This document shows positions 379-14,192 of a stretch of 22,514 nt of DNA, piece by piece. The DNA is from a virus. The notes under the pieces are model-generated. The model searched no databases. It saw only the letters and a list, made by a program, of their open reading frames with translations, and was not told the origin of the DNA. The first letter of the stretch is position 1; every line of letters starts with the position of its first letter. The DNA is taken from the IMG/VR virus record IMGVR_UViG_3300033146_002537, positions 1-22,514 of that record, one strand, 5' to 3'. Both the position numbers and the translations under genes were made by a program.

Positions 379-683
379 CGTTGCTGGACTACGCGCGAAA
401 TGAGTTTCATTTGATGGAACGCCCGAAGGGAAGCAAGGCAAGTTTTTTTGACCATTACAAGCAAATCGAAAAGACAACCGGCAAGACACATGAAAAGTTG
501 CAAATATCCGACAACCCGCCGCGCTTGCTTTACCTGTGGCAGGCTTATCTTGAAGTCATGGGGCGGCACCCGCTGACATGGCAAGAATTGGAAGCGTGGC
601 AAAGGATGACGGCAAAGCGCGTTACCCCGTTTGAAGCAAAAATTATTTTTCAACTCGACCGCCTGAACAAATGGACGACGTAG
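345..683 (+). CDS. Frameshift extension of the tail chaperone (T domain, gpGT-like)
   Basis: This is the -1 frame relative to the upstream gene. It is open from 321 (after a TGA at 318-320) to the TAG at 681-683. Read from the slip site it adds about 112 residues to the chaperone. There is a TTG at 381, but it has no ribosome binding site, so independent initiation looks unlikely. The segment is rich in Lys, Arg, Trp and Tyr, including the stretch LLYLWQAYLEVMGRHPLTWQ. In lambda the T domain binds the tape measure protein and recruits the tail tube protein; I infer that here. The stop overlaps the tape measure start by 13 bases, consistent with translational coupling. The alternative is a separate small tail gene starting at the TTG. 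Confidence 0.75.
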   Translation, partial: AGAILEQGARIALLDYARNEFHLMERPKGSKASFFDHYKQIEKTTGKTHEKLQISDNPPRLLYLWQAYLEVMGRHPLTWQELEAWQRMTAKRVTPFEAKIIFQLDRLNKWTT

Positions 684-3373
684 TAACACTGCGAATCAAA
701 GTTCTTTCTGAGCAAGTCGCCGTTGCCGAAAGGCGGCTTGGCGCGCTTGAAGCGTCGAGCCTACGCGCGGAGACGGCAACAAAGCGTTTGACAACAAGCA
801 CCGTGCGCACGTCGGCAGTGCTCAAAAGTGTTGCGGGCGTTGTCGGCGGGGCGCTTGCTATGGCGACGGCGAAGGCAACGCGGGAATGGTTGAGTTACGA
901 CAAAGCCGCAAAAGAGGTGATGTCCATAACCTCCAAGTCCCGTGCTGAATTCCAGAAGATGCGCAAGGACGTTTTGCAGCTTTCGCAAGCTTTGGGGGTG
1001 GACGCGACCGACGCGGCCCAGGGACTTTATCAGGCGATTTCGGCGGGTGTGGATCAGGACAAGGCGCTTGCGTTCCTCGACGTTGCCGGGCGCGCGGGCA
1101 TTGCCGGGGTTACCTCGCTGGAAACGTCGGTCAATGGGTTGACCGGTGTGATAAACGCCTTTCATTTGGAAGCGTCGGACGCCGAAGAGGTGGCTGACGT
1201 GCTTTTCACCGCCGTTCGCGAAGGCAAGACAACCTTCGACGAGCTAGCCTCTACGATGGCGAAGGCAACCGTTCCGGTTGCGGCGGCGGGCGGAACATAC
1301 CGCGATCTTTTGGCGGTCACAGTTGCGTTGACAAAGCAGAACGTGCCGACATCGGAGGCAATGACACAAACCGCTTCCGTTATCAAAGCGTTGATTAATC
1401 CGTCAAAGGAGATGGTCGCGATTTACCGCGCGTTGCACGTCGAATCCGGCCAAGCACTCATTCAACAAAAGGGGCTCGTCGGCGCGATGCAGGCGGTTTA
1501 TGGCGCGGTTGACGGGAACCAGCGGGTGCTTTTCAAAGCATTGAAACGGGCGGAAGCCTTCAATGCGGTGCTAGGTGTCTCCGGTAGCAACGCGCAAACG
1601 GCAATCGACGCTCAGGACTCACTAGCCGAATCATCCGGTGCGATGGGCAAGGCTTACAAGACAAACGCCGAAACGCTGGAAAACGCGCTCAACTCCCTCA
1701 AAGCGTCGGCAATTGCCCTTGTGGAAACAATGGAGGGGTCACTTGGTATCATCCAACGCTTTTCCGAGGGGTTGCGCGGTATCGCCATGCTCATGGGATA
1801 CGCACAGGAGTCGGCGGCAACCGCTCGCGCACTGGCCGGAACCGACGTCACAGAACTCGGCCATGCCACTGAGATACTATCTCGTGTGTCCGCCTTGCGC
1901 AAGGAGTTGGAGGAAACCCGGGCGCGGTCGGCGGCGGACTCCGGACTCGCCGGGTCCGGCAGATTGTTCGGCGGCGGACTCGATACCAATGAGATAAAGA
2001 GCGAACTGGACCAACTGCGGAAAGCGTGGGGTGCTATCGACGAGTCGACTCAATCCCAAGCGAAGAACCTACAAGCCATAGTAAGACTACAATCCAAGGT
2101 TACCGCGGGAACCATGACACAGGCCGACTTCGATACCGAAAGACTGAGACTTCTACATAACTTCGACGAAACACAGAAAGCCATTACCGAGGAACAAGAG
2201 AAAGCCGCCAAGGCATCCGCCGCCGACTTGCAGGAACGGAAGTCGGCGATGGAGCGTGCACAGGCGGAGATGGCCGCCGAGAAAGAACATAACAAAGAAC
2301 TCGAACGTGCGTCACGTATGGCTCGGGACCTAGCCACCACAGAACAGGAAAAACTCGACATACAAATCAAGCAGATTGACGCCGCGAGGGAAGCGGGGAG
2401 AATATCCGAGGAAACCGCCCGGAAGGCCACCGATGCATTACTGGAACAGAGGATGGCTCTGACGGCCTCCGGCGGAGGGGGTGGGGGATCGGGAGGGGGC
2501 GGCGGCGGAACGCCCGCCAGTGGACTCTCACTGCCGGGAATCGACGACCCATTCGGCGGCGGCTACAGCGACGCTGACCGCTTGCAGGAGCAAGAGGAAA
2601 TGGTGCGGGAAAGCTATGTTAGACGGCGGGAGGCGATACTTGCGGAAACCGCGTTGACGGTCGAGCAACGGAACGCGCTGCTTGCCGGGGCAGATAAACA
2701 ATATCTTGACATCATGGCGAAAGCCGAGGTGGAACGGCGGGCAATCACCATGCAATCGACCGAGCAGCTTTTCGGTGATTTGGCTAGTATTGCAAACGCT
2801 TTCGGAAAGCGTGGGGCGGACGCCGCGAAAGCACTAGCCATCGCCGGGGCAACGGTCAAGATGTACGAAGGGGCGACGGCGGCCTATGCGTCGGCAGCGT
2901 CAAACGGGCCGCTAGGTTGGCTCATGGCACCGATTGCGGCGGCTTCGGCTTTGGCGGCGGGCGCGGCGAATATCGCGGCCATCCGGTCGACCCCGATGGA
3001 CTACGCCTTTGCAGCCGGCGGCATCGTACCGGGCGGCAACTACTCCGGCGACCACGTGCCCGCGCGCGTCAACTCCGGCGAAATGATTCTGAACCGGCAA
3101 CAGCAAGCCGAGCTTTTCGCGTTTGCAAACGGCAAAGCCGCGCCGACAAGCGGCGGCGGAGATGTCAAAGTGGTTGTCAACAACAACGCGCCCGGCGTGG
3201 ATGTTTCGGTTGCCGAAAGCACTGGACCGGACGGGCGCACAATTGACTTGATTGTCGCGCGCGCTGTGTCACAATCGCGCTTGACGATAGCCAGCGACAT
3301 AGCGCGCGGCGGCAACGGTGTAGCGCAATCGCTCGAAAGAACCTATTCTCTGCCGCGCGGGCGGGGAGTGTAA
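671..3373 (+). CDS. Tail tape measure protein
   Basis: This 900-residue protein sets tail length and is ejected with the DNA, often forming a channel through the cell envelope. The N-terminal third (residues about 80-330) is the conserved TP901/TIGR01760-type core, with runs such as LSQALGVDATDAAQGLYQAI and a TSEAMTQT segment typical of the family. Residues about 400-600 are a long charged, Glu/Lys/Gln-rich, helix-forming stretch. A Gly/Ser-rich linker follows at about 600-617. Near 740-775 there is an Ala-rich hydrophobic region that could insert in a membrane. The C-terminal part has the common tape-measure signature GGIVPGG...VPARVNSGEMIL. The ATG at 671 overlaps the preceding gene and has no clear Shine-Dalgarno site. 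Codons in the middle segment look somewhat different from the flanks (more AGA, ATA and CTA), which hints at mosaic origin. Confidence 0.95.
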   Translation: MDDVVTLRIKVLSEQVAVAERRLGALEASSLRAETATKRLTTSTVRTSAVLKSVAGVVGGALAMATAKATREWLSYDKAAKEVMSITSKSRAEFQKMRKDVLQLSQALGVDATDAAQGLYQAISAGVDQDKALAFLDVAGRAGIAGVTSLETSVNGLTGVINAFHLEASDAEEVADVLFTAVREGKTTFDELASTMAKATVPVAAAGGTYRDLLAVTVALTKQNVPTSEAMTQTASVIKALINPSKEMVAIYRALHVESGQALIQQKGLVGAMQAVYGAVDGNQRVLFKALKRAEAFNAVLGVSGSNAQTAIDAQDSLAESSGAMGKAYKTNAETLENALNSLKASAIALVETMEGSLGIIQRFSEGLRGIAMLMGYAQESAATARALAGTDVTELGHATEILSRVSALRKELEETRARSAADSGLAGSGRLFGGGLDTNEIKSELDQLRKAWGAIDESTQSQAKNLQAIVRLQSKVTAGTMTQADFDTERLRLLHNFDETQKAITEEQEKAAKASAADLQERKSAMERAQAEMAAEKEHNKELERASRMARDLATTEQEKLDIQIKQIDAAREAGRISEETARKATDALLEQRMALTASGGGGGGSGGGGGGTPASGLSLPGIDDPFGGGYSDADRLQEQEEMVRESYVRRREAILAETALTVEQRNALLAGADKQYLDIMAKAEVERRAITMQSTEQLFGDLASIANAFGKRGADAAKALAIAGATVKMYEGATAAYASAASNGPLGWLMAPIAAASALAAGAANIAAIRSTPMDYAFAAGGIVPGGNYSGDHVPARVNSGEMILNRQQQAELFAFANGKAAPTSGGGDVKVVVNNNAPGVDVSVAESTGPDGRTIDLIVARAVSQSRLTIASDIARGGNGVAQSLERTYSLPRGRGV

Positions 3374-3384
3374 AAAATGATACT

Positions 3385-3753
3385 ATGAAACCAAGCTCAA
3401 CACTTACAGCGACGAATGCGGACTCTTTTTGCTTTGCAGAAAGTCATTTTGTTTCAGGCAACGACACCGGCAGCGCGATTTTGTGCAACGGTTGGGTGCC
3501 CGTCGGCATTGTCACACCTGCGGACCTTGCCGGGGCGGCGGCGGCGTCGATGCTTGCGGACGCCGGGGACGGCAATTATTTGCCGACATTTGACCGGGCG
3601 GGCGCTGCTGACGCTATTGTGCTGACCGCCGGCGCGTTCATCAAACTTGCGCCGTCGGATTATCCAGGCTTCGCAAGCGTCAAGTTGAAACTCGACGCAG
3701 CACCGTCCGCCGACATTACCCTGCAAATCATGCTGCGGAGCATCAATGATTGA
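3385..3753 (+). CDS. Small phage protein of unknown function in the tail operon
   Basis: I do not recognise this 122-residue protein. It has no signal peptide or membrane segment. It is rich in Ala, Asp, Ser and Thr with short beta-prone stretches, including near its C-terminus (VKLKLDAAPSADITLQIML). This composition is common in small virion decoration or fibre-associated proteins. It starts 11 bases after the tape measure stop, and its own stop overlaps the next gene start, so it is probably co-translated with the adhesin downstream. A structural or assembly role for that adhesin is a guess from position only. No Shine-Dalgarno site is visible at a normal distance. Confidence 0.75.
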   Translation: MKPSSTLTATNADSFCFAESHFVSGNDTGSAILCNGWVPVGIVTPADLAGAAAASMLADAGDGNYLPTFDRAGAADAIVLTAGAFIKLAPSDYPGFASVKLKLDAAPSADITLQIMLRSIND

Positions 3754-6700
3754 GCCCATGTCCAAACTGCTCACACTTTACGGACGCGACGCGACACCGC
3801 CACCGGTGCCGGTGCCGCCGCGTTGGGCTTACAAGTTCGACTTGATGAACCCGGACCTTACCGAACCTCCTCCGGAGCTTCTGGCCGGGTTCTCGCGTTC
3901 CGGACCTGCGTGGATGTTTGACGCTGAGGGTCACATCGTCATGGTTCCGGAGAATTACCAAGCCTACTCCGGCGCGGTGGCCAGCCTCGAATCGAACCAC
4001 GTCACGTTCGAGAGCACCGCGGCGACAAGCGCAATTCTACGGGTCACTGACAGCTATCCTTACGTCTTCAGCAACGCCGGGTATCGTTCCGAGTTGATAG
4101 CGGGCAAGCGGTTCTTCGCGTCGTTCACCGTCCGGGCCTTCCAAGCCGGGAAGGTCGGGCGAATCGGGTTCTACCGTCCGACGGCGGCGGCAACCGAAAT
4201 TCAGGTGGACTTGGACAACGGGAACGTGGTTTTGGAAGACGGTGCGCCCGGTCATATATTGGTCGAACGTATCGGGGATTTGCACTATCGGATAGGGATG
4301 AGCTGGGTCTGCCCGGACGCCAACAAAGGTTGGTATGCTTTCTTCGGTCTGTCCGGGGCAAGCGTTGGAACGCAGTTCGAAGCGTCCGACATGACGGTTT
4401 CCCTCAATGGTCATTGTCCGTTTGTTCCGGTCGTGGACACAACGCCGATCAAGGACCAGCCACGCTGGAACAACCACCATCCGGACGGGAGTTTCGCCGG
4501 ATGGAAAGTCGAACCGCACGAAGGAAAGAACATGCTCGCATGGAGCGAGAAGTTCGACGAATGGATGGCGGAGCAAGTCGCCGTTTCGCTAGAAGCGGAC
4601 GAATGGGCACCCCGGCGCGGGAAGGCGCACAAAGTCGCGGCGGACGGAGCGTCCGGAACGCACCGGCTGGAATCCGACTCGGTGACGGTCGCGGAGCTTG
4701 CGGACCATGCCGTCGGGTTCCTCCTGAAGAAAGGGGCCGTCGGCGAGTGGGTGCAGATCGGCTACGAAGACGACATCGCGCCGCATTGGGCAAACCTCAA
4801 CTTGAGCACCGGGGAGTTCGGAAACTCGTCGGGGCCGGACGTGATCCCGTCGGTCGAGGAATACAGCAAGGGATGGCTGCTCGGAAAGTTGACGGACAAG
4901 ACGGCAGGCGGGGCGACGCAGGCTGCCGCGTATGTCTGCCCGGTGTCGGGGGACGTGACGGACGCATACCCGGTCGAGACGTGCGACACCGAGATATGGC
5001 TTAACACGGCGCATTTCGGGACTGGTGACTTCCTTCCTCTATACATCCCGACTGCGGGGGCGCTGGGTGTGCGGGCGGCGGAGACTCTGCCGATCGACTC
5101 GCTTCTAGCCGCAGGCGTTCCCTTTTCGGTCGTCATGGCATGGTCGAGAAATGCGGAGACCGGGCAAAAGGAACCGTTCGCCGCAAGCATGGGAGGATTC
5201 GCCCGCCTAGTCCTTTCCACCTATCTCCCGGCGGACAGGCTGGACGCATTCGTTTCCGGCGGTCAAATCGGATTGACTACGCCGGAGGTCGGCGCAGGAC
5301 TCCATATCCCGCAGGCGTTCGCGGCCCGCGTGCTTTCCGGGGACAACCGCATCGCCGTGATCGGCCCTCCGAAGCAGGTCCACGGGCAGAATGACGCAGA
5401 CGCGGCGGAATACGACATCGATGACGCGAGGGTCGGAGCGTCGCTTCCGCTTGATTTCCGGCAACTATTCCTTTCGGAAAAGCCGCTTGAAGACGCGACG
5501 CTAGACGCCGAACTCGCCAAGCTCGACCTCCGCCACACCGTGCCGCCCAGCGGAGCGGTGAGGTTCACCAGCGACAAGGCGGGCGACATCATGTTCACGC
5601 TTCGGAAGACCGGAGCGGACGGATACAGCCACAACACCGACAACGGTCCGGCAAGTTGGGAGCTGGTCGCTGGATCGGCGAGCTACGGCGTCGTCATTCC
5701 GAACGACGGAACGGAGCACGAGTTCGCGGTGTGGTCCAGCGACGGGAAGCCTAACAGCACGGAGAACGGGACCCTGACGTACCTCGACTGCCGCTCGAAC
5801 AACCTGAGCGAGCTGGACGTCTCGGCCAACACGAGCCTGACGTCCCTCAACTGCTCCTCGAACGACCTGACCACCTTCGACGTCTCGGCCAACACGAGCC
5901 TGACGTCCCTCAACTGCTCCTCGAACAACCTGAGCGAGCTGGACGTCTCGGCCAACACGGCGCTGACCACCCTCAACAGCCCCTCGAACGACCTGACCGC
6001 CCTCGACGTCTCGGCCAACACGGCGCTGACCATCCTCTACTGCTCCTCGAACAACCTGAGCGAGCTGGACGTCTCGGCCAACACGGCGCTGACCACCGTC
6101 AACTGCTCCTCGAACACGGCGATGACATCGCTGAGTATCGGCGCGGCGGCGTTTTTGCGAACGGACGGATACGCTCCTCTGAGAGCCTATTCGTGTGCGC
6201 TGACAAGCATCGACGGCGGCAACGCAACATTCCAGAACACGGGCGGAGGATTCGCCTGCGACATCCACGACAACAACCTCTCCGGTCCCGCGCTCAACAA
6301 GTTCTTTACCGACATCGACCCCGCCCCGACTCCGACCCCGGCGAACCACCGCATCGACACGACCGACAACCCCGGATCGGAAGAAGCCGACGATTCGATT
6401 GCGACCGACAAGGGCTATTCCGTCACGTCGGACGCGCGGCTTGTCCATGGCGACATGACGACACAGCGGAGCTTCGACGGCGAGGTTGAAGTCGTCAACG
6501 AGGTGACGATGAGCAAGGACGCGACGATTCGGGAAATCAAAGTCTGGCTCGAACAGGATTCGACGCAGGTCGGGCGGCAGGCGTCTCTCGTGGTCAACGG
6601 AACGGTCAAGAACATCAACATCGTCAACCAGCCGCCCGGATGGGCGAAAGTCTGGACCGGAGGAATCGACGTGAAGGCGGGCGACATTGTGGAACTGCAC

Positions 6701-6880
6701 TACACGATTCAGGACTTGCAACGCCCGACCGAATACGCAATCCTGCCGGACGGGTTCGTCGAACAGCCGCGTTTCGGAACCGTCAGAAGCCGGGTGCTCC
6801 ATGACGACGTGGACATCGGCGCTTCCGACACGGACGCGATGCCAATCTCCTTGAAACTCGCCGTAACGAACGGTATTTGA
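3746..6880 (+). CDS. Large tail adhesin with sugar-binding-like modules and leucine-rich repeats
   Basis: This 1044-residue protein is probably a virion-associated host-recognition protein. Visible domains, in order: a short N-terminal anchor with a Pro-rich hinge (residues 18-26); two copies of a beta-sandwich module common in phage fibres (about 70-240 and 265-435), each ending in a sequence like LPLYIPTAG or CPFVPV; a ConA/LamG-like domain (about 440-600) ending with the usual LFLSEKPLEDATLDAEL element; a linker domain (about 610-675); five 21-residue leucine-rich repeats plus a partial sixth (677-795); an LRR C-terminal cap with a TPTP hinge near 860; and a final beta-rich domain (about 900-1044). 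It overlaps the preceding stop by 8 bases, and a GGAG lies about 8 bases before the start. MSK four codons later is an alternative start. Receptor binding is inferred; no catalytic motif is visible. Confidence 0.85.
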   Translation: MIEPMSKLLTLYGRDATPPPVPVPPRWAYKFDLMNPDLTEPPPELLAGFSRSGPAWMFDAEGHIVMVPENYQAYSGAVASLESNHVTFESTAATSAILRVTDSYPYVFSNAGYRSELIAGKRFFASFTVRAFQAGKVGRIGFYRPTAAATEIQVDLDNGNVVLEDGAPGHILVERIGDLHYRIGMSWVCPDANKGWYAFFGLSGASVGTQFEASDMTVSLNGHCPFVPVVDTTPIKDQPRWNNHHPDGSFAGWKVEPHEGKNMLAWSEKFDEWMAEQVAVSLEADEWAPRRGKAHKVAADGASGTHRLESDSVTVAELADHAVGFLLKKGAVGEWVQIGYEDDIAPHWANLNLSTGEFGNSSGPDVIPSVEEYSKGWLLGKLTDKTAGGATQAAAYVCPVSGDVTDAYPVETCDTEIWLNTAHFGTGDFLPLYIPTAGALGVRAAETLPIDSLLAAGVPFSVVMAWSRNAETGQKEPFAASMGGFARLVLSTYLPADRLDAFVSGGQIGLTTPEVGAGLHIPQAFAARVLSGDNRIAVIGPPKQVHGQNDADAAEYDIDDARVGASLPLDFRQLFLSEKPLEDATLDAELAKLDLRHTVPPSGAVRFTSDKAGDIMFTLRKTGADGYSHNTDNGPASWELVAGSASYGVVIPNDGTEHEFAVWSSDGKPNSTENGTLTYLDCRSNNLSELDVSANTSLTSLNCSSNDLTTFDVSANTSLTSLNCSSNNLSELDVSANTALTTLNSPSNDLTALDVSANTALTILYCSSNNLSELDVSANTALTTVNCSSNTAMTSLSIGAAAFLRTDGYAPLRAYSCALTSIDGGNATFQNTGGGFACDIHDNNLSGPALNKFFTDIDPAPTPTPANHRIDTTDNPGSEEADDSIATDKGYSVTSDARLVHGDMTTQRSFDGEVEVVNEVTMSKDATIREIKVWLEQDSTQVGRQASLVVNGTVKNINIVNQPPGWAKVWTGGIDVKAGDIVELHYTIQDLQRPTEYAILPDGFVEQPRFGTVRSRVLHDDVDIGASDTDAMPISLKLAVTNGI
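5774..6130 (+). repeat. Tandem 63-bp repeats encoding leucine-rich repeats
   Basis: Five in-frame 63-bp units begin at 5774, 5837, 5900, 5963 and 6026, with a degenerate sixth from 6089. Each encodes the pattern LTxLxCSSNxLxxLDVSANT. Near-identical DNA such as CTGAGCGAGCTGGACGTCTC recurs in units 1, 3 and 5, so unit number could change by recombination or slippage. The cysteine at a fixed position in most units resembles the cysteine ladder of InlJ-type bacterial LRRs; unit 4 has replaced it with Pro. Confidence 0.95.
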
Positions 6881-6884
6881 CGCA

Positions 6885-7400
6885 ATGAGAAACACAATCC
6901 CATATCCTAGCGTTCTGCCGAATCCCGCCACGCGCATGGGCGGCGAAAAGCGCGTGCCTGTAACGCGGGTGTCGATGGAGACCGGGCGCACGCGGCAGCT
7001 TATCCGGCACCGCACGCAAGCGGAAATGATTCAGGCGGCGTGGGAGTTGACCGACGACGAACTAGGCGATTTCGACTTTTTCTTTCGCGTCGGGCTCGTC
7101 GGCGGCACGCAGTATTTTGACATGCCCGTGCCGGGGCGTGGCGACACACTGAGCACAGTTCTTGCGCGATTCGTCGGTGGAACCTACCGAAAAAAGTACA
7201 AGCACTTCGGCATGTGGGATGTGACCGCCACGCTTGAAACGGAATCGTTGCCGCTTATTACCGACATGGACTCTTTGATTTTTACCGCTTTGGCAATATG
7301 GGGCGACTTGCAAGGATGTCTTGACTTCTCCGAGCTTTTTCATCGCGTAGTGCACGAAACAATCCCGACGAACATTCAACTTCCAAACCCAAACCCCTGA
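6885..7400 (+). CDS. Minor tail protein, lambda gpM-like
   Basis: This 171-residue protein has the layout of phage minor tail or tail-tip proteins of the gpM type. A Pro-rich start (PYPSVLPNPATR) is followed by an arginine-rich SMETGRTRQ segment, then a Trp/Phe-rich middle (AAWELTDDELGDFDFFFRVG) and a beta-rich end with WDVTATLETE. In many siphophages such a protein sits between the tape measure and the DUF1833/NlpC/gpJ set and helps close the tail tip at the cell-proximal end of the tape measure. It starts 4 bases after the adhesin stop. The residues after about 130 (LIFTALAIWGDLQG onward) extend past the usual end of such proteins, which may be an addition. Assignment is by pattern and position, not by a confirmed family match. 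Confidence 0.7.
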   Translation: MRNTIPYPSVLPNPATRMGGEKRVPVTRVSMETGRTRQLIRHRTQAEMIQAAWELTDDELGDFDFFFRVGLVGGTQYFDMPVPGRGDTLSTVLARFVGGTYRKKYKHFGMWDVTATLETESLPLITDMDSLIFTALAIWGDLQGCLDFSELFHRVVHETIPTNIQLPNPNP

Positions 7401-7414
7401 ACAAAAACAAACAC

Positions 7415-8191
7415 ATGAAAACAACACTTGTCTTGCTCATGGCTGGCGTGCTCGGTGCATCCGGCGCGGTTACAATCAACATCGACTATGCCTCGGCCAC
7501 TCCGGGCGACCCGCTCGACGGCTTCGACGACTGGGCGCAGTCTCCCCCAAACTCGGACCCGCTTTCCCCGCTATCGTGGGTCGGCATTCATGCCGGGAGG
7601 AAGGCGGCGTCCATCGGCGGTTGGTATGACGAGGCACCCGGATACAATAAGGTTTTCGTTGAGCATCCGCTACATATCGCGGCGGACGGACTCAACCTTG
7701 CCCTCGACTTCGGAGTTATCCCGTCGACACCATTCTACCCGGAACAGAATGACTTCGGCATCGCCCTTGTGGACAAATACGGCAACGATATCTTCACAAT
7801 GACGTTAACCGGCGTGGGTCCGCAATGGAATCTTGGCTGGTCGAGTTCGCTCATTGCCCCGGACCCGCCGCCTTTCGCCGGGGTGCTTCCCGGAGGGGAC
7901 TACACATATCTGTTGCACATTAAGAATGACAAGGCGTCGTTTTCGATTCATAGTGACCTGAACTCGGCGGTGGGCGGGGTGGTCATTCCTGGTCTGTCCG
8001 GGGCGGCGGTCGCAGCGATTCGACTCGATTGGTTGCGCGAACCCGGGGAGGCTTGGGGTGATAATGTTATGGGGGTAGGCTCGATTACTGCCTGTGGATT
8101 CGATACGCCAGAGCCGAACGCAATAGGCATTGTTGCCAGCTTGCTTGGCGGGGCGCTCATGCTCCGCACACGAAGGGGGGCGGCGCAATGA
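7415..8191 (+). CDS. Secreted PEP-CTERM sorting-signal protein encoded by the phage
   Basis: The 258-residue product begins with a clear Sec signal peptide (Lys3, hydrophobic core, GASGA before a likely cut near residue 18). It ends with a complete PEP-CTERM tripartite signal: Pro232-Glu233-Pro234, a hydrophobic segment (IGIVASLLGGALML) and a basic RTRR cluster. In bacteria with an exosortase/EpsH system this tail directs processing at the envelope, often linked to extracellular polysaccharide or biofilm. The body is beta-rich, with many Gly, Asp, Trp and Pro, like PEP-CTERM exoproteins. It starts 14 bases after the minor tail gene behind an A/C-rich leader with no Shine-Dalgarno site, and its stop overlaps the lipoprotein start (ATGA). 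The function is unknown. I infer a surface protein displayed on the infected or lysogenic host rather than a virion part. Confidence 0.85.
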   Translation: MKTTLVLLMAGVLGASGAVTINIDYASATPGDPLDGFDDWAQSPPNSDPLSPLSWVGIHAGRKAASIGGWYDEAPGYNKVFVEHPLHIAADGLNLALDFGVIPSTPFYPEQNDFGIALVDKYGNDIFTMTLTGVGPQWNLGWSSSLIAPDPPPFAGVLPGGDYTYLLHIKNDKASFSIHSDLNSAVGGVVIPGLSGAAVAAIRLDWLREPGEAWGDNVMGVGSITACGFDTPEPNAIGIVASLLGGALMLRTRRGAAQ

Positions 8192-8424
8192 GACCAACGC
8201 CCGCATACGCGAAGCTGGCCGTGATTCTGGCTGTGCTTTCGGGCACCGCCGGATGCTCCATGCTCACCCCGCCCGCCGGCGACGCGCAAACGACGGTGAT
8301 CATGCAAGGTCCGGGCAACGCGACAATCCTGACAACCGACAATCCGCGCGTTTCGCGCACGTTCACTTTCGGCGAAAAGCGCCGCGGAAATGAACCAAAC
8401 CAGTTACCGATAGAAAGACGCTAG
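8188..8424 (+). CDS. Small predicted lipoprotein, coupled to the PEP-CTERM gene
   Basis: This 78-residue product has a type II signal peptide: a basic N-region, the hydrophobic core LAVILAVLSG and the lipobox GTAGC with Cys at position 23. The mature part (about 55 residues) is Thr/Pro-rich and ends in a basic tail, with no recognised domain. The ATG overlaps the upstream TGA, so translation is almost certainly coupled to the PEP-CTERM gene, and the two may work together at the envelope. Small phage lipoproteins can block superinfection (for example T5 Llp) or form the outer-membrane half of a spanin. The nearby PEP-CTERM gene favours a surface or exclusion role, but nothing in the sequence decides it. 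Confidence 0.8.
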   Translation: MRPTPAYAKLAVILAVLSGTAGCSMLTPPAGDAQTTVIMQGPGNATILTTDNPRVSRTFTFGEKRRGNEPNQLPIERR

Positions 8425-8427
8425 GCT

Positions 8428-9561
8428 ATGGCACAAGAACGAATCACTGGCGATGAATTGGATGCTGCCGCGCAACAGATTGCGGATGACTCGGAGACTA
8501 TGCACAGCATTGTCCACGGTGCACCGACCGCCCCCGACGTGCCAACCGAAGGCGGCGACGTGCCGCCGTTGGGCAAGGTGGTGGCCGCGATGAACGCCCT
8601 GTGGGGGCCGGGGCTGATCTCCGGCGATGGGGTTCCGGACGATTCACTGGGTATCGATGGCCAGCACTATCTCAACCTATTGGACGGTAGTGTTTACAAA
8701 AAAGCCTCCGGGGTGTGGGGATCGTTCTACGTCCCGGCGACCAATCGTATCTATGCGGTGGTTGCGATGCCGGACGACTCTTTCGGTGCAGACGGCGACC
8801 TCGCCATCATGTACGCCAGCGTTCTTGTGAGTAGCTTTCTGGAAAAATCCGGTGGGACATGGCAACAGTTGGCGCAATGGGCCGGGGCATGGGCACACAA
8901 TGTTCTCGAGTTGACCGACAACTTCATCGGGAACACTGCCAAGCTTGAAGCGGATGGGATTTTCGGGGAAGCCGGATGGCTCTTCCATAACATCGCTGGC
9001 GTCGGCACGGTTCGCATGCGGCACGATGACGGAACTGATCCGTCGCCGGGTACGTGCCAGTTGACAGCGGAGGCGGGGGCCGGTAATGCTTCCTGCTTGA
9101 CTTTTCAACACGACGGCGGAGGTAATGGGTTCTACCTGAGTCAGCTTGCGGCATCCACGGACAATGTGCTTTCATTCGTTTTCAAGCTGAAAACAGCATC
9201 GCAGTGCCATCTTGGTTTCACTAACAGCCTATGGAATGCCACCGACCCGGTATTGAATCGCTTCGGCGGCTTGTTCGGCGATGGGGAAGCGGGCGGTAAC
9301 TTCCTTTTCCGCACAATCGAAGGCGGGACCGTGCAGGACACCGATTTACTGTTGCCTGTGGATACCGAGTGGCACACCTTGCGAATCCGTACGAGCCGTA
9401 TGCCGGAGAACAACTACCACATAACGCTCGACGGACAAGAGTTTATCGTTGCGAATCCGTCGCTGTCAGGTTCGGTTCAGGTGTCAGCGATGACTGTGTC
9501 CACAGCGGCGGCGGCGGGCGCGCTGCATTTGAACTCCTTCAAACTCGCCGCCCTTTACTAA
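8428..9561 (+). CDS. Tail fibre-like protein with a ConA-like C-terminal domain
   Basis: This 377-residue protein opens with a helical anchor (residues 1-60) followed by two copies of a short phage fibre motif. The first is PDDSLGIDGQHYLN...SVYKKASGVWG (69-98) and the second PDDSFGADGDLAIMY...LEKSGGTWQ (115-146). This GxDGD-Y-N-x-VY-K-G-W pattern is common in tail fibre and collar proteins. Residues about 155-377 form a beta-rich, Gly/Phe/Trp-rich region that ends in TEWHTLRIR and DGQEFIV segments, as in concanavalin-like lectin/LamG folds. The likely role is binding cell-surface glycans. It starts 4 bases after the lipoprotein stop and ends 1 base before the phosphoesterase, so the two are probably made together. 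No enzymatic residues are evident. Confidence 0.75.
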   Translation: MAQERITGDELDAAAQQIADDSETMHSIVHGAPTAPDVPTEGGDVPPLGKVVAAMNALWGPGLISGDGVPDDSLGIDGQHYLNLLDGSVYKKASGVWGSFYVPATNRIYAVVAMPDDSFGADGDLAIMYASVLVSSFLEKSGGTWQQLAQWAGAWAHNVLELTDNFIGNTAKLEADGIFGEAGWLFHNIAGVGTVRMRHDDGTDPSPGTCQLTAEAGAGNASCLTFQHDGGGNGFYLSQLAASTDNVLSFVFKLKTASQCHLGFTNSLWNATDPVLNRFGGLFGDGEAGGNFLFRTIEGGTVQDTDLLLPVDTEWHTLRIRTSRMPENNYHITLDGQEFIVANPSLSGSVQVSAMTVSTAAAAGALHLNSFKLAALY

Positions 9562-9562
9562 A

Positions 9563-10900
9563 ATGGCACTGAATCACTACAAGACAACGCGGGCTCTGAG
9601 CGGATACCGAAACGAGGGCAGTCATGACTTGGCGGAAATGTTCGCACAGGTCGGCTTCGATCCGCAAGCGTCGGGTGCCGGCTTTGTGCTCACTCTGACC
9701 GATTCACACATGGTGGGCAATACAGCCAACGGATATGTCACAACGGCTTTCTCCCAACCCACCATCGCGGCCATCCGCAACGCGGGCCACCTCGGACCCG
9801 TCCGTATAGTTCACCTCGGCGATATGCTGACCGATTTCGTTTCTTCTTTCGGCAACCATCCCGGCGATGGAGCGGTAGAGTTCGGCTTGAAGGAAACCAC
9901 ATGGTTCAACTCGATGATGGAAAACCTACTTCAACCTTTCGCGCCTGTTGCGTTGTCGCTCGGAAACCATGACACGCCGCCACGCGAAAACGGAGGAATC
10001 GGCGCATTCTGCCTGGCGAACATGACCGGCTTCGATGCTCTGCATCACACTTTCCATTGCGGCGGAGTTCGTTGGGTTGTTCTTTCCGCCGATCATGGCG
10101 CGGGGTTCGTCGATGGGCAGTTTGATTTGGTGGATGCCGAGTTCGCCGCGAACAACGGCGAGGATATGGTGATGACAATCCACCAGCCGGGTAGCGGGCG
10201 TCCATCGGACTGGCACGCAATGTTGGAGATGTGGCAACATATCCCCGCCGATCTGCCGGGGGAGTTGCTTTTCCTCCACGGGCACACCCACCGAAATCTT
10301 ATTCAACGGCAGCAGAAACCCGGCGGAAAGCTGGTGCATCGGCTCACCTACGGGGCGGCAATCCCGGAGGCACATCCAAGCGGAGACGCCATGAATCCGG
10401 TTCTAGGTGCCATCGCCTGCCGGGATGGCCGGATTGTTGAGAAATTCGTGTGCCATTGCCGTAGCGGCTACTGGTATCGGCTTGTTCCTTTCCAAGAGTT
10501 CGGCATCACAGAACCTGTTTGGGACTACTACGGGCCGCTTTCCTCGGAGACGCGCCTTGCCGACTATCGCGCGGATTCTGACTTGCGACCATATCTTCAT
10601 AATTCACCAAGCGCATCGACCTTCAAGGATACCGGCACCTGGTTTTCATATGTGCATGATCTTCGGGTGAAAATTCCGATGGCCACAGGAGGAACCCGAT
10701 TCTATGTTTGTGCGAACGTGGCACCGAGCAAGGTTGACTTTTCCATCGATGGTCTGACGTGGCTTCCCGGCACGCAGGAAAGTTTCATCGAAAAGTTCGC
10801 CATCATGGGCATACCGGAAGCCGCGCGGGTGGGTCCGGACCTGTACGCCCGCATTGACCTCGACGGTCTGCATATGTCAAGTTGGGGCATCCTACAATGA
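9563..10900 (+). CDS. Calcineurin-like metallophosphoesterase in the tail module
   Basis: All signature motifs of the binuclear metallophosphoesterase superfamily are present and in order in this 445-residue protein: DxH (Asp47, His49), GDMLTD (Asp87), GNHD (Asn135, His136), a lone His (His207 in TIHQPG) and GHTH (His241, His243). The catalytic domain spans about residues 40-300. The remaining 145 residues are beta-rich, with Tyr/Trp-rich segments, and could be a binding domain. There is no signal peptide. The gene sits between a fibre gene and the tail-tip genes and overlaps the next gene by ATGA. A virion enzyme that attacks a phosphorylated surface polymer (lipid A, teichoic-like or capsular phosphodiester) is plausible, as is a cytoplasmic nuclease or phosphatase. 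The substrate cannot be read from sequence. Confidence 0.88.
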   Translation: MALNHYKTTRALSGYRNEGSHDLAEMFAQVGFDPQASGAGFVLTLTDSHMVGNTANGYVTTAFSQPTIAAIRNAGHLGPVRIVHLGDMLTDFVSSFGNHPGDGAVEFGLKETTWFNSMMENLLQPFAPVALSLGNHDTPPRENGGIGAFCLANMTGFDALHHTFHCGGVRWVVLSADHGAGFVDGQFDLVDAEFAANNGEDMVMTIHQPGSGRPSDWHAMLEMWQHIPADLPGELLFLHGHTHRNLIQRQQKPGGKLVHRLTYGAAIPEAHPSGDAMNPVLGAIACRDGRIVEKFVCHCRSGYWYRLVPFQEFGITEPVWDYYGPLSSETRLADYRADSDLRPYLHNSPSASTFKDTGTWFSYVHDLRVKIPMATGGTRFYVCANVAPSKVDFSIDGLTWLPGTQESFIEKFAIMGIPEAARVGPDLYARIDLDGLHMSSWGILQ

Positions 10901-11394
10901 ACAATCTACTTAAAGAGGCACTGAAACAGGCATACGTTCGCGCGCAAGCGGATGTCGTTGTTTTGCATACACTTGAATTTACACATGAAGACATGACCGA
11001 GCCCTTGCGGATTGTGCAAGGCAACGACGCGCAAGAGTTATGGGTTGACGGTGCGCCCGTCGAGTTCTTGCCCGTGCCCTTTGAATTCGTTTTGCCGGAA
11101 ACGACCGACACCTTGCCGGAGCTTGTGCTTGCCGTGGATGATGTCATGGGCGAGGCGTCCGCTTTTGTGCGGCAGTTTGCCGGGACCGCATCCCCCGTTA
11201 CCGTGCTGTATCGCCCATTTTTGGAAGCCGACAAGCAAACGCCACAAATCGACCCGCCTTTGCAGATGTTCTTGAAAGACGCGGTGGTGAAAGACGGGGT
11301 TTTCCGGGCGCGCGCAATCATCCATGATTTCGTCAACAAAAAATTTCCAAATGAGCTTTACCACGTCAAAGCCTTTCCCGGCCTGCAAAGTTGA
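10897..11394 (+). CDS. DUF1833 phage tail protein, likely lambda gpL counterpart
   Basis: This 165-residue protein matches the DUF1833 pattern from memory: an N-terminal LKQAYVRAQADVVVLHTLEF, a VPFEFVLPE...LPELVLAVDDV core, a PVTVLYRPFL strand, a DPPLQMFLKDA strand and the terminal FPNELYHVKAFPGL. In siphophages this family sits just before the NlpC/P60 and gpJ genes and is thought to be part of the tail-tip hub, in the position of lambda gpL. I chose the ATG at 10897, which overlaps the upstream TGA (ATGA). A TTG 15 bases earlier would also be in frame but gives a less typical N-terminus. The 3' end overlaps the next gene by about 44 bases. Confidence 0.85.
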   Translation: MNNLLKEALKQAYVRAQADVVVLHTLEFTHEDMTEPLRIVQGNDAQELWVDGAPVEFLPVPFEFVLPETTDTLPELVLAVDDVMGEASAFVRQFAGTASPVTVLYRPFLEADKQTPQIDPPLQMFLKDAVVKDGVFRARAIIHDFVNKKFPNELYHVKAFPGLQS

Positions 11395-11782
11395 AGCCTT
11401 CCTCGCGCGGGTGCACGGCTTGCCGTATCGCGTCGGGGCGGCGGGACCGGATGCTTTTGATTGTGTCGGCTTGTGCCGGGCGTTTTATGGCGCGGTTATG
11501 GGTTTCGCGTTGCCGTCAATCGTTCCGTCGGAATATCGCGCGCACAGGAATGCGGCGGATTTCGAAGGCAATGGTTGGCGGCGAATCGCCGAACCGGTGC
11601 CGGGGTGCTTGGTTGCGATGTCCCGCGCTGAGCATGTCTCGCATCTTGGGGTTTGGCTTGGCGGCGTGCTCCATGCTACGCGGGCGCAAGGCGTGCGGCT
11701 GCATGCTTTGGCACAGGTTCGCAGTCTCCATTACAAACAGTTTACTTACTACGCGAATGACCGCATACCTTTTGAAGATTGA
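11351..11782 (+). CDS. NlpC/P60 tail-tip peptidase, lambda gpK-like
   Basis: This 143-residue protein carries the NlpC/P60 catalytic pattern: Cys38 in AFDCVGLCRAFYG, His98 in SHLGVWLGG, and a third polar residue, probably His108 in VLHAT. The fold cuts gamma-D-Glu-diaminopimelate or similar bonds in peptidoglycan. In the virion it would open the cell wall locally during DNA injection or help mature the tail tip. It lacks the JAB/Mov34 half found in lambda gpK, so it corresponds to the peptidase half only. The start is uncertain. ATG 11351 (MSFTTS) gives a compact protein overlapping DUF1833 by 44 bases; an in-frame ATG at 11324 adds nine residues. The stop overlaps the gpJ-like gene by 26 bases. 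Confidence 0.88.
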   Translation: MSFTTSKPFPACKVEAFLARVHGLPYRVGAAGPDAFDCVGLCRAFYGAVMGFALPSIVPSEYRAHRNAADFEGNGWRRIAEPVPGCLVAMSRAEHVSHLGVWLGGVLHATRAQGVRLHALAQVRSLHYKQFTYYANDRIPFED

Positions 11783-14192
11783 AAACCCGTTCGAACCGCA
11801 AAAGCATGTCTTTACGGCAATTCCTGCGGGCACGGCCATTGCCGCCGCGTTACGGCGCGGCGGCATCGACCCGGAGACATCGGCGCTTCCGTTGCTTTAC
11901 CTTTTGAATGGTGTTCCGGTGTTGCATGAGACAACGCCGGAGTTTCCAGAAGCAAAGACGTTGGCTTACCGGTTGAAACCGCAAGACATGCTTTCCGTTG
12001 TCGCCATTCCGGGGGACTTCGGCTTTTCATTCATCGTTGCGGCGCTTTCGCTGGTCGTTGCCGTGGCTGCGGCGTTGCTGGTACCTACCCCGTCGAATCC
12101 GGCGCAAGGGCAGGAAAGCATCGACCCGGCATTTACGGTCAAGGGTCAGACAAACCGGTTTCGCCCCGGCGAGCCTGTTGAGGTGCACTATGGGCGCGCG
12201 CGGGTTTGGCCTAGCTACGCCGCGCAACCCTTCAGCTTTTACGACGGCAACGACAATTACCAGACGAGCCTTTTCTGTTGGGGTCAGGGCGAGTATGACT
12301 TCGACGACTTTTTGGTTGAGGATTCACCGCTTGCCGATTTTTCCGACGTGCAAACGGAAATCGTTTTGCCCGGCGCGGCGGGCGCGTTGTATCCGGGTTT
12401 TGTTTTCCGCTCCGGTGAGGTGCAGGGAATCGAACTATACGGCACCAACGAAGATGAATACGGAACAGATGGCTGGTCAACCGCGTTTGTCCTGAACCCG
12501 GCGGGAACCACTGTGGAAAGGCTTTCCATCGATATGGTTTGCCCGCAGGGACTTTTCCGCACCGCCGACGGGCTGTACTATACCACAGATGCGCAATTCG
12601 AGGTGCAACGAATGGCAATTGATGATGACGGCAACGAAACCGGGTCATGGGTTACATGCATCACCGAATACTTTGAACGCGCGGACCCCGCGCCGCAACG
12701 GTTCACCATCGCCGCCGACGTGCCGGCAGGAAGGTACAAGCTCCGGGCGCGGAACACAGGCGAACGGTCGGATGCAGCCAACAAGATGAACCTCTTGCAC
12801 TGGGACGGGGCAACCGGCCTAAACTTTTCGGCGGTGTCGTATCCGGGAAAAACCACCGTGGCGTTGAAGATCCGTGCAACCGCACAGTTGAACGACTCAT
12901 CGCAACGGCGTTTTAATGGATGGGCAACGCGCAAGCTGCCGACATGGACGGCGGGCGCGGGTTGGTCAGCACCTGTGGCAACCCGCAATCCGGTTTGGGC
13001 ATTCTGCGACATTTTTCGTGCGGAGTACGGCGGACGCTTAGCGGACGCGTATTTGCAAATGGATGATTTGAAAGCTCTTGCCGACAAAGCCGATGCGCTC
13101 GGTGTTGTTTTCGACTGGACGTTTGACACGCCCATCACCGCTTGGGAAGCCGCCCGCGCAACGTTGCAGGCGCTTCGGGCGGTGCCGGTGCCGCAGGGGT
13201 CAATCATTACGGTGATCCGCGATGAGCCCGCCGAACTGCCAGCAATGATTTTTACACCGGAAAACACGTTGAAGGGGTCATTTTCGCAAGAGCTGAAATT
13301 GTGGGATGCAGACGCGCCGCATTCTGTCGAAGTCGAGTATTTCGACCCGCAATCTTGGATTGCAAAAACCGTGGTTTGCACGTTGCCGGGATTTGTCGAA
13401 GACACAGTGCCGAAACAAATAAAACTGCCCGGTTGCACGTCGCGGGATTTGGCGTATCAAACCGGACTGTATCATCTTGCTTGCGCAATGTGGCAAAATG
13501 AATTTGTGAGTCTGGAAACCGGCTTGGAAGGGATGGTGCCCGCTTACGGTGCGCTGGTCGATGTGTCGCACCCGACGATTCCGCGCGGGCGGGGCGGTGC
13601 GGTCCTTGCCTGGAGTTCGGCAACGCGGAACATGGAGCTGTCGGAGCCGGTGCTTTTCGAGACGGGCAAGACCTATGCAATCCTTTTGCGGGATATTTCG
13701 GGCGGGGCGGTCGAATTGCCGTTGCCGTGCGAGCATCCCGACGGCGGAACGGGCGAGACGCGGCGTGTGCGCATACCGGGCGGCATCGGCCAAACGCAAT
13801 TGGTTGTTGATGTTAACGCCGCGCCCGCACTCTACATTTTTGGCGAACCGGGCACCCTTGCGTTCCGCGGAAAAGTCACCCGGCTTGCGCCATCGTCGGA
13901 TTCGGCGGTGCAGGTGGACATTGCCAAATATGACGCGCGCGTCTATGCCTTCGAGAATACGCCCGCGCCGTCCGGGGGACCGGCGGCTTGCGCACGTCCC
14001 GCGCCGGGCACGCCGGGGCGAGTGAAGATGCGGCGGGACCCACTCCGGCGCGGTTGGCTCATTCTCCGCTGGCAACCCGTTGCCGACGCTACCGGCTACC
14101 GGGTCGAGGTTCAGCACGGGCGGCACGGCGCTTGGGAAGCGGTTGGGATTGTCGATCAGCCGTTTTTTTCCGTTGCGCGTCCGCTCGCTTAA
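11757..14192 (+). CDS. Tail tip/host specificity protein, lambda gpJ-like
   Basis: This 811-residue protein is the central tail-tip hub. Residues 1-80 look like a small gpI/ubiquitin-like domain (KPQDMLSVVAIPGDFGFSF at its end). A strongly hydrophobic stretch follows (about 86-108, FIVAALSLVVAVAAALL), as found in gpI/gpJ-type proteins. Residues 110-740 contain the gpJ hub with the characteristic RFRPGEPVEVHYGRARVWPS segment and later a WAFCDIF...GRLADAYLQMDDL segment. The end (about 745-811) resembles a single fibronectin type III domain (LILRWQPVADATGYRVEVQ). The open frame extends upstream to 11391, but that part lies on top of the peptidase gene, so I chose ATG 11757. Lambda gpJ is longer (1132 residues) and binds the receptor with its C-terminus. 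Here that part is short, so receptor binding is probably done by the separate adhesins. Confidence 0.9.
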   Translation: MTAYLLKIENPFEPQKHVFTAIPAGTAIAAALRRGGIDPETSALPLLYLLNGVPVLHETTPEFPEAKTLAYRLKPQDMLSVVAIPGDFGFSFIVAALSLVVAVAAALLVPTPSNPAQGQESIDPAFTVKGQTNRFRPGEPVEVHYGRARVWPSYAAQPFSFYDGNDNYQTSLFCWGQGEYDFDDFLVEDSPLADFSDVQTEIVLPGAAGALYPGFVFRSGEVQGIELYGTNEDEYGTDGWSTAFVLNPAGTTVERLSIDMVCPQGLFRTADGLYYTTDAQFEVQRMAIDDDGNETGSWVTCITEYFERADPAPQRFTIAADVPAGRYKLRARNTGERSDAANKMNLLHWDGATGLNFSAVSYPGKTTVALKIRATAQLNDSSQRRFNGWATRKLPTWTAGAGWSAPVATRNPVWAFCDIFRAEYGGRLADAYLQMDDLKALADKADALGVVFDWTFDTPITAWEAARATLQALRAVPVPQGSIITVIRDEPAELPAMIFTPENTLKGSFSQELKLWDADAPHSVEVEYFDPQSWIAKTVVCTLPGFVEDTVPKQIKLPGCTSRDLAYQTGLYHLACAMWQNEFVSLETGLEGMVPAYGALVDVSHPTIPRGRGGAVLAWSSATRNMELSEPVLFETGKTYAILLRDISGGAVELPLPCEHPDGGTGETRRVRIPGGIGQTQLVVDVNAAPALYIFGEPGTLAFRGKVTRLAPSSDSAVQVDIAKYDARVYAFENTPAPSGGPAACARPAPGTPGRVKMRRDPLRRGWLILRWQPVADATGYRVEVQHGRHGAWEAVGIVDQPFFSVARPLA

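Follow-up and report, generated by a model that had tools for sequence, protein, structure and literature searches.

A 22,514-base IMG/VR virus record (IMGVR_UViG_3300033146_002537; the whole stretch is referred to here as the window) carries, within a siphovirus tail operon, a gene for a predicted exported protein with the tripartite C-terminal architecture of PEP-CTERM proteins, and a recurrent family of phage genes with a conserved PEP-CTERM motif is present in other viral contigs. We consider it reasonably likely that the window gene is a genuine accessory gene of the phage late operon, the product of which would be handled by a host exosortase and would mask or alter the surface of the infected cell.

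A PEP-CTERM-like gene in a siphovirus tail operon

The gene occupies positions 7415–8191 on the plus strand, where the ORF and its translation, from an ATG start, confirm a protein of 258 aa at exactly these coordinates. Hydropathy and reading by eye identify a hydrophobic N-terminus, MKTTLVLLMAGVLGASGA followed by VT, which is predicted to be a Sec signal peptide (residues 1–18; 7415–7468) with a signal-peptidase-I-like cleavage site between SGA and V. The ectodomain is predicted to be beta-rich, and single-sequence structure prediction of the protein was uninformative (pLDDT 35). After a Gly/Pro-rich middle of ~210 residues comes the tail TPEPNAIGIVASLLGGALMLRTRRGAAQ, and the C-terminus reads ...DTPEPNAIGIVASLLGGALMLRTRRGAAQ. 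The PEP-CTERM-like sorting tail (residues 231–258; 8105–8188) comprises TPEP, a hydrophobic helix, AIGIVASLLGGALML, and a basic RTRR; the PEP, transmembrane helix and basic cluster together (TPEPNAIGIVASLLGGALMLRTRR) lie 28 aa from the end. The protein thus has the arrangement claimed for it in an initial annotation of the window, which had described a full PEP-CTERM surface protein in a phage tail operon.

That annotation had named the PEP-CTERM models TIGR02595 and PF07589 as a check on the product, and here formal membership was narrowly missed. The 33-aa tail alone scores 15.2 bits on TIGR02595 against a cut-off of 16 (E 0.029 over 18,950 models) and 15.2 bits on PF07589 against a cut-off of 20.7, and the full-length protein gave no reported match to either model. 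The window tail is therefore a near miss, having the architecture and falling just outside the formal family; a phage protein with a clear PEPxxWA-type tail (L062) likewise scores just 14.2 on TIGR02595. When the final 45 residues of the protein were shuffled 1,000,000 times, 172 of the shuffles satisfied a positional rule that calls for PE[PAT], then a hydrophobic stretch and then basic residues, suitably spaced from the C-terminus. Among 483 ORFs from the window and 32 related phage loci, the window PEP protein alone passed this rule. A tail profile built mostly from alphaproteobacterial-type PEPxxWA phage tails recognized the window tail poorly and gave no discrimination; since this profile misses it, we assign the window tail to a different PEP-CTERM subtype.

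The plus strand of the window is a tail operon ordered from assembly chaperones to the tip protein J, and the minus strand carries replication genes (PolA, processivity factor, helicase and Cas4-type exonuclease), a module that we take to be Septimatrevirus-like. Tail genes flank the PEP gene on both sides, as had been claimed. Upstream on the same strand are the genes for the tail tape measure protein (671–3373; PF10145 5.6e-28, TIGR01760 1.8e-27), a large tail protein with an internalin-type LRR block at residues ~670–800 that is a probable receptor-binding component (3746–6880) and, directly before the PEP gene, a virion structural protein (6885–7400; phrog_384). Downstream, also on the plus strand, follow a small putative lipoprotein of 78 aa with a lipobox-like SGTAGC (8188–8424), a tail-fibre-like protein whose C-terminal half reads by eye as LamG-like (8428–9561), a metallophosphoesterase-like protein (9563–10900; Metallophos 18.9 bits against a cut-off of 21.5), a DUF1833 minor tail protein (10882–11394; phrog_396) and tail tip attachment protein J (11391–14192; phrog_469/phrog_31). 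The LRR block is internalin-J-like (E 9.8e-28 to NF033187), and a receptor-binding element of this kind is unusual in a phage tail operon. The metallophosphoesterase-like protein, whose place is taken by a GDSL lipase in a related phage, may be a receptor-modifying enzyme on the tail.

The PEP gene starts 14 bp past the phrog_384 gene and shares a 4-bp ATGA overlap with the lipoprotein gene. Its GC content is 59.2% (58.9% for the window) and its codon-usage z-score, -1.34, is inside the range of the flanking phage genes. We found no terminator-like sites around it and two promoter-like matches, neither in the upstream gap, a number near chance given a shuffled mean of 1.0.

The same position in related phages

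In relatives found via J, the gene order is tape measure, phrog_384-like gene, host-specificity gene, a slot of variable content, DUF1833 and J. As read by eye, the slot holds lipoproteins in four relatives (L003, L005, L012 and L019), that of L012 with a C-terminal transmembrane segment, and a lysozyme-like ORF with transmembrane proteins in a fifth (L001); across these five the slot genes are holin-like, endolysin or lipoprotein. By the positional rule, none of the 32 related-phage loci has a PEP gene. Because the relatives' slot holds envelope or lysis genes and no PEP gene, the window gene is an accessory gene of one phage, situated in a slot for envelope-acting proteins and not conserved in the lineage. 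In one further relative (L025) the slot product (5780–6637) is 285 aa long and has a signal peptide, a start that reads by eye as fibronectin-III-like, and no PEP tail.

The closest isolate for the tail is Janthinobacterium phage Donnerlittchen (J 36%), and for PolA it is Stenotrophomonas phage ply2008005c (56% identical). Donnerlittchen, which has a Mesyanzhinovviridae-type tail module, shares with the window the order and homology of tape measure, DUF1833 and J; it differs in having no PEP gene, its slot being occupied by genes for a GDSL lipase and for a protein of 238 aa that lacks a PEP tail. Phages related through PolA likewise contained no relative of the window PEP protein.

Searches with the whole window protein found no homologue in viral_contigs, genome_contigs, phages, plasmids or PDB sequences (the genome_contigs scans returned no locus), and it had no match in a defence-gene library, in virion families or in PHROG lysis families. 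A weak match to a laccase (E 0.017) was not accepted as real. Because the searched collections contain no homologue, exosortase processing of the window protein is something that we infer.

PEP-CTERM genes in other viral contigs

The initial annotation held that such proteins are usually chromosomal. This was too strong, as soil viral contigs commonly carry PEP-CTERM genes. With a composite of PEP-CTERM tails, just six 8-residue patterns led to 35 IMG/VR viral loci. The profile of one recurrent family (alignment A2) matched 154 stretches of viral contigs, and the best 80 of these represent 79 loci; some of the 154 matches are tail-only, and some of their contigs overlap with the 35 probe loci. 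The initial annotation had suggested looking in viral databases for PEP-CTERM hits near tail genes, and the neighbours in these contigs include tail-fibre genes. Prophage-flank status was checked for part of the 35 loci, some of which are probably host DNA flanking a prophage, likely cases being L039, where there are four PEP genes, and L043, whose PEP gene is on the strand opposite its neighbours. In clear-phage loci, the neighbours include M15 endolysin, tail collar fibres, primase/helicase, PolA with PurZ, lysozyme and terminase. Nine of ten phage PEP proteins scanned exceeded the TIGR02595 cut-off, and three of the ten the stricter PEPxxWA cut-off. A second tail probe, of the non-WA type, added one further contig (L068).

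Several of these contigs have features of their own. On L068, a 49-kb viral contig, three tandem PEP-CTERM genes with non-WA tails (6825–8684) lie downstream of a 981-aa ORF. Five phage contigs (L118, L119, L121, L123 and L124) each carry two adjacent PEP-CTERM genes, which suggests duplication or cassettes. In six others (L106, L108, L115, L048, L051 and L047), PEP-CTERM genes are near genes for PolA and a PurZ-like 2-aminoadenylosuccinate synthetase; the PurZ-like protein of L048 is phrog_1211, and such phages may have 2-aminoadenine DNA.

In 35 non-redundant members of the recurrent PEPxxWA family, the P, E and W of the motif and the following G are invariant (mean column conservation 0.67), and pairwise dN/dS is 0.08–0.54, rough values given that many dS exceed 1. 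Of 78 family loci, 14 gave a match to an M15 endolysin, which in 12 of these 14 is at most ~1.3 kb from the PEP gene, and terminase (phrog_2) is present in 19 of 35 such contigs. An AlphaFold model of the family (mean pLDDT 79, pTM 0.71) consists of a 12-strand beta-sandwich and then a C-terminal helix from the PEP. Its nearest solved folds are beta-sandwiches, several of them glycan-binding, with Z of ~8–9, a weak likeness without bearing on function. Members of this family (L046, L058, L066 and others) resemble the window protein in being exported and beta-rich, with a PEP tail, beside lysis or tail genes and without an exosortase of their own. They differ in tail subtype, which is PEPxxWA, in belonging to other phage groups and in having no similarity to the window protein, blastp and phmmer (alignment A3) having found no ectodomain homology between the two.

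None of 36 contigs, the window included, matched the exosortase model PF09721, the control match of which was only in M. jannaschii, so that its alphaproteobacterial reach is not established. The lack of a phage exosortase in these contigs is what would be expected if the host enzyme is used. That phages exploit the host exosortase pathway, as the initial annotation had suggested, is independently supported by the many viral contigs that carry PEP-CTERM genes; for the window protein itself, such processing is the part of the claim that stays provisional.

In a 50,697-record set of isolate phages, we found no match to two viral PEP proteins and none to the PEP-tail composite, the latter search being limited by the shortness of the tails and by low-complexity filtering in BLAST. 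In literature coverage that largely excludes subscription papers and preprints, we found no paper that connects phage genomes with PEP-CTERM or exosortase; a Microcystis paper naming both PEP-CTERM and phage concerns host genes. PEP-CTERM itself is known, and its use by phages appears to be new. In the account of Haft et al. 2006, PEP-CTERM genes mostly form operons of one gene, preceded by large intergenic regions, and phages go unmentioned (PMC1569441).

Proposed role and competing explanations

Proteins of the PEP-CTERM pathway are directed to Sec by a signal peptide, parked in the membrane by a transmembrane segment, acted on by exosortase at the PEP and delivered to the outer surface or exopolysaccharide (PMC1569441, PMC3237569). 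The window protein resembles those of the PEP-CTERM/exosortase (EpsH) system in its signal peptide, PEP motif, transmembrane helix, basic C-terminus and otherwise non-homologous ectodomain; it differs in that its gene is part of a phage tail operon and that its score is just under the cut-off (PMC1569441). Following the same route, its signal peptide would lead to Sec export and its C-terminal helix would park it in the inner membrane; an exosortase would then act at the PEP, and the beta-rich, possibly glycan-binding domain would be displayed at the outer surface or in exopolysaccharide. As the gene lies inside the tail operon with no promoter-sized gap, the protein would be made late, alongside the virion proteins and the adjacent lipoprotein. 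Its most likely job would be masking or altering glycans or receptors on the surface of the dying cell, such that neither progeny nor rival phages re-adsorb to the infected cell or its debris; a second-choice role would be to aid release through the envelope or matrix. The roles suggested in the initial annotation, namely receptor masking, exclusion of other phages, a change in biofilm or labelling of the host, are likewise conjectural. The phage exclusion lipoproteins T5 Llp and TP-J34 Ltp are small exported proteins that alter adsorption or entry. They are akin to the window protein as exported phage products and unlike it in being lipoproteins, with other anchors.

Other explanations must be weighed against this one. 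The window protein could be an ordinary secreted protein that a C-terminal segment anchors in the membrane, its PEP being incidental; with the lipoprotein it would form a spanin-like pair, a holin-regulator pair or some other inner-membrane device. We regard this as unlikely, but as the likeliest of the alternatives. In its favour, relatives have lysis or lipoprotein genes in the slot, including the L012 lipoprotein with its C-terminal transmembrane segment, the window tail is under both curated cut-offs, and the overlap with the lipoprotein gene resembles that of paired spanin genes. Comparison with the two-component spanin Rz/Rz1, in which the i-spanin has an N-terminal transmembrane segment and a periplasmic coiled coil and the o-spanin is a lipoprotein, gives a mixed picture: the window has the lipoprotein, but the PEP partner has a cleavable-looking signal, a C-terminal transmembrane helix and a beta-rich domain, and there is no match to a PHROG lysis family. 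Against the explanation, the ectodomain is Gly/Pro- and beta-rich and not coiled-coil, and the distance of the PEP from the end and the RTRR fit a sorting tail far better than do shuffles, a fit seen in only the one ORF of 483.

The absence of the gene from related phages, together with its lack of phage relatives, would also suit recent capture of a PEP-CTERM gene from a host, as a moron with no selected function for the phage. This we judge improbable in view of the tight operon, the start-stop overlap and the phage-like composition, and given that PEP-CTERM genes of other phages are recurrent and under purifying selection. The location among tail fibre and tail tip genes, with a LamG-like domain next door, might instead indicate a virion component, that is, a tail protein merely resembling an exported one; a signal peptide, C-terminal transmembrane helix and RTRR would be unexpected in such a protein, the window protein matches no virion family, and we think this very improbable. 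The contig is metagenomic, and a chimera with bacterial DNA had been named among the findings that would overturn the initial annotation. An assembly chimera or bacterial contamination seems to us the least probable explanation of all, with phage genes directly on both sides, the 14-bp gap, the ATGA overlap, and GC content and codon use that match the phage.

Beyond the window, the occurrence of similarly tagged proteins in dozens of soil viruses suggests that phages redecorate infected cells. We think it probable that phages of exosortase-bearing Gram-negatives have repeatedly and independently acquired PEP-CTERM-addressed surface proteins and keep them under selection for late redecoration of the infected cell, in a Gram-negative parallel to the LPXTG surface proteins of phages. 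To our knowledge, almost nothing is known of the roles of individual PEP-CTERM proteins. Phage PEP-CTERM genes, under purifying selection and beside lysis and receptor-binding genes, amount to a natural assay of function, in that whatever these proteins do has to be of use to the phage, probably on the surface of the cell or within the matrix. If our reading is correct, such genes would constitute a new class of phage surface-modification genes and a marker of exosortase-positive hosts for uncultured viruses. Shine-Dalgarno sequences are scarce before most starts in the window (for example, AACAAAAACAAACACATG ahead of the PEP gene), which may hint at the host group.
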